A DNA stretch of 34,237 nt from Mycobacterium sp. 1423905.2. Its GTDB lineage: Bacteria > Actinomycetota > Actinomycetes > Mycobacteriales > Mycobacteriaceae. Every line of letters begins with the position of its first letter. The first letter of the stretch is position 1. The position numbers and the translations under genes are program-made. Below the pieces are notes generated by a model. It did not search any database. It saw nothing but the letters and a program-made list of their open reading frames with translations, and had not been told where the DNA came from. Below, one piece after another: positions 29,744 to 34,237 of the stretch. The stretch spans positions 1 through 34,237 of the forward strand of contig NZ_LZLE01000047.1 in the NCBI RefSeq assembly GCF_001673155.1, given 5' to 3'.

Positions 29744-33038
<3,295 letters not shown>

Positions 33039-33044
33039 CGGTTT

Positions 33045-33158
33045 CGGGGCTCGGCGTCGAGCGTGCGCTCTTGGCGTCGAATGTGCGCTCTTGGCGCCGA
33101 GTGTGCGGCTGCGGCGGCCAATGCCCGCAAATCCCGCCCTGGACGCTCAGTCAAAGCC
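33045..33158. repeat. Left inverted repeat of the nuclease element
   Basis: The complement of 33071-33158 matches 34083-34170 at 67 of 88 positions without gaps (hand count), including AGGGCGGGAT and CCGCACACTC. The outer part has three ~20-base iterons based on GGCGTCGAGTGTGCGCTCTT (starting at 33053, 33073 and 33093). It begins eight bases inside the nuclease gene's 3' end. Confidence 0.85.
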
Positions 33159-34011
33159 GTGAGCGCACAACCGATTCCGCGATGGCCTCGCGGACCCGCC
33201 GCAGAATGTCGACGGGCCGATCCTCCACGACGACGCGGACGATGATCCACCCCATCCGCTCAAGCATTTCGATCCGGCGCAGATCCTTGACGTATTGTCG
33301 TCGATCGGTCCGGTGTTGGTCACCGTCATACTCGACGGCGACCAAATGCTCCGGCCAACCGAGATCCAGATACGCAACTGGTATGCCGTCCACACCCAAC
33401 ACCGGAATCTGCGTCTGCGGCCGAGGCAACCCCGCGTCGATCAGCAGCAGCCGCAGATAGCTCTCGCGAGGCGACTGTGCGCCCGGGTCAACCAGTTCCA
33501 GCGCGGATTCCAGACGCCGCAGTCCTCGTGCGCCACGGTGGCATTGCGCCACCGTCAACACATCGTCGACTTTAAAACCGGTAGCGCGGGCCAATGTGTC
33601 CAATCGCGCGACCGCCGAGCGGATCGCCCCGCGCCGACCGATGTCGAACGCGGTGCGTTCGGGTGTGGTCACCGGCAACCCGTCCACGCTCTGCGTTTCC
33701 CCGTCATGCAACGCCTCGCGGCGCGTCATGACGCCCACCGGCGGTCGCGTGTTGGGATGAACGAGTTCGACCGGAACCTCGTCGGGAATCCACTCGGCGC
33801 CGTGCAGCGCCGCGGCGGCCGCGCCGGTGATGGTCGCTTGGCGGTGCGACCAGAGCCAAGCCGCAACGATGCGCCGCCGCAGTGACGGCTCGACGTCGTT
33901 GGCCAGGTATACGTTCGGGTAGACCGCGCGGAACCTGGTCCGCAGTTGATGCCGGTTCAACGCCCCGCGCGCCAACGCTTCACTGCCGATGAACGGTTCC
34001 CCGAGATCCAT
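33151..34011 (-). CDS. DUF559-type endonuclease-like protein with N-terminal AbiEi-like region
   Basis: 286 residues. The N-terminal ~60 residues (SEALARGALNRHQLRTRF, RAVYPNVYL) resemble the winged-helix start of AbiEi-type proteins. The C-terminal ~100 residues look like a Vsr/PD-(D/E)xK nuclease: E183 (SPRESYLRLLL), D216 (AYLDLGWPE), E227 and D229 (AVEYDGDQHR), then ERMGWIIVRV, the core of the DUF559 fold. Such proteins are common and multicopy in mycobacteria; their function is not established. The gene sits alone between the convergent pknG and ackA, inside a pair of inverted repeats, and is not at this place in M. tuberculosis (recalled). It may be cargo of, or the mover of, that element. 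ATG 34011 gives the full N-domain. Confidence 0.83.
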   Translation of the reverse strand: MDLGEPFIGSEALARGALNRHQLRTRFRAVYPNVYLANDVEPSLRRRIVAAWLWSHRQATITGAAAAALHGAEWIPDEVPVELVHPNTRPPVGVMTRREALHDGETQSVDGLPVTTPERTAFDIGRRGAIRSAVARLDTLARATGFKVDDVLTVAQCHRGARGLRRLESALELVDPGAQSPRESYLRLLLIDAGLPRPQTQIPVLGVDGIPVAYLDLGWPEHLVAVEYDGDQHRTDRRQYVKDLRRIEMLERMGWIIVRVVVEDRPVDILRRVREAIAESVVRSRL

Positions 34012-34082
34012 GCGAGCACAGTCGCACGACGAGCATCACCCGCGTGTTCAGCTATCCACAGGCCGGCCCAGTGTGCGCTGAT

Positions 34083-34170
34083 GGCCTCGAGTGAGCGCCC
34101 AGGGCGGGATTCGCGGCGGATCGCCGCCGCCACCGCACACTCGACGCGCAGGCTTCACACTCGACGGCAA
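34083..34170. repeat. Right inverted repeat of the nuclease element
   Basis: Inverted partner of 33071-33158. It lies 71 bases upstream of the nuclease gene and reads outward like the left one, with two CACACTCGACG iterons (near 34134 and 34155) at the outer end. It stops 19 bases short of the ackA stop codon. Confidence 0.85.
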
Positions 34171-34189: not shown

Positions 34190-34237
34190 CTAGAGCGACG
34201 CCACCACGCCGGCGCAATCGCGGGCGATAGCCAGCTC
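34190..34237 (-). CDS. ackA: Acetate kinase, last 16 codons (partial)
   Basis: The minus strand reads ELAIARDCAGVVASL and then TAG, running off the right edge in frame. EELAIAR-type endings are typical of acetate kinase, and ackA follows pknG in convergent orientation in M. tuberculosis (recalled). Too short for more certainty. Confidence 0.65.
   Translation of the reverse strand, partial: ELAIARDCAGVVASL

Follow-up and report, generated by a model that had tools for sequence, protein, structure and literature searches.

The 34,237-nt contig NZ_LZLE01000047.1 of Mycobacterium sp. 1423905.2 (RefSeq assembly GCF_001673155.1), analysed over its whole length and called "the window" here, carries between pknG and ackA a gene for a putative nuclease that is bracketed by two 54-nt imperfect palindromes. 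On balance, we think that this protein, with its predicted AbiEi-like head and Vsr-like tail, binds such palindromes and cuts or nicks them, driving their copying to intergenic sites. We also lean, about as firmly, toward a broader reading: that it represents an undescribed class in which several AbiEi-headed, Vsr-like nucleases per genome each maintain and spread their own private palindromes of 54–61 nt in actinobacterial genomes, the head setting the specificity.

The gene (33151..34011, minus strand) is an uninterrupted reading frame of 286 aa, from the ATG at 34011 to the TGA at 33151–33153, and it lies between the stop codons of pknG (33036–33038) and ackA (34190–34192, minus strand) with no other gene called in that interval, just as a first-pass annotation of this DNA had described. 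That annotation also reported an inverted repeat of about 88 bp around the gene; its 67/88 identities between 33071–33158 (complement) and 34083–34170 were reproduced, and the repeat extends to 76/99 positions (left arm, 33071..33169; right arm, 34072..34170). The inverted alignment of the left and right spacers scored 44, against a maximum of 22 in 5000 first-order (Markov) shuffles. One palindrome overlaps the stop codon at the 3' end of the gene (33099..33152) and the other lies on the 5' side, 77 nt upstream of the start codon (34089..34142); the two are 44/54 identical when inverted and 29/54 in direct orientation. Iterons, also noted earlier, are indeed present at the outer ends: three tandem 20-nt iterons on the pknG side (33050..33109; palindrome outer arm, GTCGAGTGTGCGC type) and two CACACTCGACG iterons, 20 nt apart, on the ackA side (34136..34166, starting at 34136 and 34156).

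Pfam matches of the protein to DUF559, MTES_1575 and AbiEi_1 all fall below the Pfam cut-offs. The predicted fold supports both halves of the protein and, with them, the earlier assignment to a nuclease type with an AbiEi-like head: residues 1–175 are modeled as the head, with an AbiEi-like N-terminal fold, and residues from about 180 to 282 as a Vsr/EDxHD-like tail with an I-Bth0305I-like catalytic fold. In the predicted active site, D216 and E227 are invariant in two alignments, H233 in just the one of 60 sequences. Mycobacterium kubicae has a close homolog (90% identity). Vsr itself is a mismatch-repair endonuclease that nicks at T:G, and its gene adjoins a cytosine methylase gene; unlike Vsr and the EDxHD homing endonucleases such as I-Bth0305I, the window gene has no intron in view and is bracketed by palindromes.

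The gene belongs to a large family. Homologs were found in all 60 sampled genomes of the genus, 2 to 17 in each, and the window's genome has eight copies including the window gene. The flanking palindromes differ by clade (labels F1–F8 are our own): GAGTGTGCGC in F1, which is the clade of the window gene, GTTGACTCTGCG in F2, CGAGATTGCCG in F3, GTGCGGCTAGCC in F4, CGAGTCTGCGC in F5, CGAGACTGCGC in F6 and GAGCAGACRCAAA in F8, the most divergent clade, whose member in genome G000 shares 30% identity with the window protein. A similar palindrome layout is seen at the 3' end of the gene in orthologs and in F8. The 5' and 3' flanks matched each other with a score of at least 24 at 47 of 97 family loci (46 of 96 without L099, which is the same place as L057), compared with 4.1% of 2390 mispaired flanks, and the 74 control ORFs, drawn from the window and from nine stretches of genome G023, all stayed below that score. 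The other 50 loci fell below the threshold, several close orthologs of the window gene among them. Together, the shuffles, mispaired flanks and control ORFs rule out chance or G+C bias as the source of the matching flanks, and they support the conclusion that the gene and its bracketing repeats belong together, a link that the first-pass annotation had proposed.

In the F8 clade, the flanks matched at 25 of 30 loci versus 26% of mispaired flanks, which in this clade have the outer arm in common. By an automatic count, 21 of the 30 loci have a palindrome on each side of the gene and 6 have just the upstream one; the count found none at the remaining 3, namely L295 and L307, which are truncated by a contig end, and L008, whose called gene overlaps the palindrome at its end. 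Between the end of the upstream palindrome and the called start codon lie 123–255 nt, and the downstream palindrome starts at −2 to +28 nt relative to the stop codon; none of 426 random G023 pieces gave a match. Most of the outer 13 nt is common to the clade, but the inner arm varies from gene to gene, and the copies flanking any one gene usually agree in it. A known RNA family was considered and rejected, as five loci (L286, L302, L391, L189 and L001) gave no Rfam match at the gathering score. We also observed an asymmetric motif (CGGCGTGTCG / CGACACGCCG) that recurs in the palindrome loops of F1 and F8, which are otherwise different families (L189, L128, L305, L313 and others).

The palindromes also occur dispersed through Mycobacterium genomes, in numbers that depend on the patterns chosen and across related genomes that are not independent. 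A first F8 pattern that included the inner arm (AAACGTGCGATTTTGC, one mismatch) found sites in only 12 of the 60 genomes, at most six in each, and was replaced by a whole-palindrome pattern. The latter yielded 692 copies in the 60 genomes (46 of them with any, and up to 65 per genome) and none with the reversed-pattern control; most of the listed copies are 56 nt long. The median was 10 copies in genomes with an F8 protein (match at 1e-40; n=43) versus 0 in those without (n=17; p=6e-6), and F8 palindromes were lacking altogether from 4/43 and 10/17 of these genomes, respectively. For F2, the word searched occurred 181 times versus 15 in the reversed control, with a median of 7 in genomes with an F2 protein (n=17: 14 placed by tree, and G027, G032 and G036 added by identity, the list having been made after the counts were seen) versus 0 in those without (n=43; p=1.7e-7). 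Among genomes without a listed F2 protein, G013 (8), G019 (7) and G012 (6) had the most F2 words. The 21 F2 palindromes that were read in G021, G038 and G015 (20 loci) are 60–61 nt long and lie in unrelated flanks, save for one site common to G021 and G015 (L396, L409). Length is near-constant among the dispersed copies of F2 and F8, the two clades read base by base, in elements of 54–61 nt.

The case for dispersal is weaker for F1, the window's own clade: its words numbered 266 against 37 in the reversed control over the 60 genomes; the window's genome by itself has 19, seven of them in a single array, with 1 in the control. Positions 1030–1600 of locus L021 (contig C319 of G000) are taken up by a long array in which 20-nt iterons occur together with F1-type palindromes and seven exact GTCGAGTGTGCG words; no nuclease gene was seen in the part read.

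Dispersed copies resemble the gene of their own genome in type as well. For 106 dispersed F8 palindromes from 12 genomes, agreement with the inner arm beside the gene was 5.05 of 7 positions when that gene came from the same genome and 3.36 of 7 when it came from another, a result reached in 0 of 20,000 permutations. The own gene ranked first in six of the 12 genomes and second in three (G004, G052 and G048 ranked 3, 6 and 9); the test used one F8 gene per genome, and some genomes have two, several of the 12 (G048 and G052 included) among them. On average, then, the dispersed copies follow both the presence and the type of the nuclease gene. The first-pass annotation had equated repeats found mainly without the gene with a coincidental pairing: the palindrome alone is dispersed, so repeats apart from the gene are literally what is found, but the pairing is not coincidental, because the dispersed copies follow the nuclease in these two respects.

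Across the family, palindrome and protein appear to change together. Flank similarity rose with protein identity among 4123 locus pairs without shared genomic context, with a correlation that none of 2000 permutations reached; pairs with a flank score of at least 24 made up 0.5% of those at 45–50% protein identity and 48–50% of those above 65%. In a joint fit to 2161 pairs, the largest weight fell on the first 60 residues (0.74) and the smallest on the nuclease half (0.28), while simple correlations with flank similarity were 0.39 for residues 61–130, 0.37 for residues 1–60 and, last, 0.15 for the nuclease half. The palindrome thus seems to be best tracked by similarity of the AbiEi-like head, a trend rather than proof since the locus pairs are not independent.

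Comparisons of related genomes bear on gain and loss at individual sites. In a stretch collinear between G015 and G021, one F2 palindrome stands at the same site in both, its outer arms identical and its inner arms changed. A second is present in G015 only: a gap of 93 nt in G021 spans the 61-nt element, which has two mismatches in its outer arms, and both sides align. At a third G015 copy, the matching place in G021 holds several kilobases of other sequence. G052 and G023 share two palindrome sites (one shown base by base) and differ at one, a difference that is ambiguous because G023 has another palindrome there; for L411, L426 and L427, the G023 stretches retrieved for this comparison contained no counterpart. 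The defined target duplication that the first-pass annotation anticipated did not appear around the dispersed palindromes: own and mispaired flanks gave means of 0.48 and 0.55 at 21 F2 sites and 1.23 and 1.24 at 30 F8 sites, with at least 4 matching flank nucleotides at 13% of own versus 6% of mispaired F8 sites.

The best-surviving alternative, which we nevertheless consider unlikely, is that the palindromes are mainly terminators or mRNA-end structures and that the protein is a regulator binding similar repeats at its own gene. Several observations fit it, of which the intergenic placement, the compensatory pairing and the binding of inverted repeats by AbiEi proteins also count for a copying nuclease. 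Intergenic placement is the rule (19/21 F2 palindromes and 30/30 F8 palindromes, one per genome and each the first in its list, by our own codon-usage gene call, which places about 92% of random positions inside called genes), mostly between convergent or tandem genes and seldom between divergent ones (2/30 F8, 0/21 F2). F8 stems show compensatory change: at stem positions 14–20 of 53 distinct palindromes compensatory pairs occur, position 19 being paired in 96% versus 48% when shuffled, and such pairing is weaker in F2 stems. At one site a related genome has a different hairpin, and AbiEi proteins bind inverted repeats and autoregulate through them (PMC7319586). Terminators, however, require neither a fixed outer sequence nor a near-constant length, and they would need neither to match the flank type of the nuclease gene nor to depend on the presence of that gene.

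The first-pass annotation had favored a unit of about 1.1 kb, gene and repeats together, that moves as one element, and this part of it was not supported. Of 80 named loci, 70 have a homolog on the downstream side of pknG (in pieces at L123, L160, L167, L178 and L181); the 80 are the best of 111 pknG relatives, with some species present more than once and the ackA end located in 58, so that the set leans to close species. With the homolog this constant, the gene is mostly inherited in place, and the copy flanked by its two palindromes is probably a master passed on vertically, not a frequent traveler. Paralogs at other loci have other palindromes, which are short and either direct or inverted relative to each other, and what occurs dispersed is a single palindrome; for these reasons we rejected the idea that the long inverted repeat moves as one unit. 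Repeats and gene nonetheless go together at pknG: the exact F1 arm is present in the spacer of 34 of the 70 loci with the gene, and 9 of the 10 gene-less loci lack it in the stretch read (only 153 nt of spacer at L140, one of the nine), L172 (393 nt) being the exception. The empty junction was seen at L118 and L179, in comparison with L188. Two further observations concern this region: many of the pknG–ackA spacers in L118–L197 hold about 2.5 kb more between this site and ackA, apparently another gene, and in Mycobacterium tilburgii the pknG region occurs twice on one contig, both times with a diverged copy of the nuclease gene (L127 and L129).

The same facts bear on a homing-type or selfish element, in which gene and palindromes would invade sites whole and the nuclease would cut empty alleles. 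A homolog in one place at so many loci, and paralogs elsewhere with other palindromes, both speak against it, as does the family's rarity in plasmid (7/72,556) and phage (1/50,697) records, among which no match covers 80% of the query; we regard it as improbable. Poorer still are the prospects of a defense or toxin–antitoxin gene of the AbiE kind, whose flanking repeats would be operators only and whose dispersed copies would be an unrelated repeat family: the AbiEi-like head, predicted to share its N-terminal fold with the antitoxins S. agalactiae AbiEi and Rv2827c, counts for it, but here, unlike in those antitoxins, the head continues into a nuclease-like tail, its cognate repeats are dispersed and follow the gene, and no nucleotidyltransferase toxin gene adjoins it in the pknG–ackA interval of this locus, where a toxin–antitoxin or abortive-infection cargo had also been suggested.

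In the explanation that we prefer, a nuclease that copies its palindromes, the AbiEi-like head would read the arms of the cognate palindrome, much as known AbiEi proteins bind inverted repeats, and the Vsr/I-Bth0305I-like tail would cut or nick DNA there. Repair or single-strand copying after the cut could then seed new intergenic copies, and the nuclease may play for its palindromes much the role that RAYT transposases play for REPINs. REPIN palindromes carry a GTAG or CGTC tag at one end. The REPIN–RAYT system comprises dispersed inverted-pair palindromes, a dedicated and vertically inherited enzyme gene for each type, and more copies where the enzyme is present (PMC3116915; PMC8049555). The features found here, namely short intergenic palindromes of inverted arms, a distinct enzyme gene for each type, inheritance in place, and copy number that follows the enzyme, form the REPIN–RAYT pattern. 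By this analogy the way of working is likely similar, with an unrelated nuclease as the enzyme: the REPIN enzyme is a Y1 tyrosine transposase, whereas here it is a predicted AbiEi-headed, Vsr-like nuclease. The RAYT family itself (PF01797) matched in only 10 of the 60 genomes, and in none of G000, G006, G007, G015, G021 and G038, so that neither membership in REPIN–RAYT nor a RAYT acting in trans accounts for these palindromes. MITEs and insertion sequences are likewise discrete elements with terminal inverted arms, the former short as here, but the unit described here has no transposase and no target duplication was detected. A literature search, mostly without subscription papers and without bioRxiv preprints, found no paper that links genes of the DUF559 or AbiEi type to dispersed palindromes, and PMC3733652 makes no mention of mycobacterial or actinobacterial cases.

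The family extends beyond the genus. In a sample of the order, homologs were present in 98 of 121 genomes (counting the window's genome and nine more from its genus) and in 39 of 49 genera. The flank test (score of at least 24) was passed by 12 of 20 loci from other genera versus 6% of mispaired flanks; four of the 12 (L355, L356, L360 and L368) have long, gapped, repetitive alignments and are discounted as palindromes, and L359 scored 23, yet has clear palindromes. At both L359 and L362 the gene lies between nearly perfect palindromes of 24–26 nt that have a AAAATGGCCATTTT core and are shorter than those in Mycobacterium. At L365, in another genus, iteron arrays (GTTGACCGTGCGTC type) replace the hairpins on both sides of the gene.

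The cognate dispersed palindromes give this widespread gene family a testable role, and the family in turn offers such palindromes a candidate enzyme in a genus with RAYT-type transposases in so few of the sampled genomes. Its clades provide a natural set of nuclease–target pairs with changing specificity. If our reading is true, REPIN-like populations would have arisen more than once, with unrelated enzymes.
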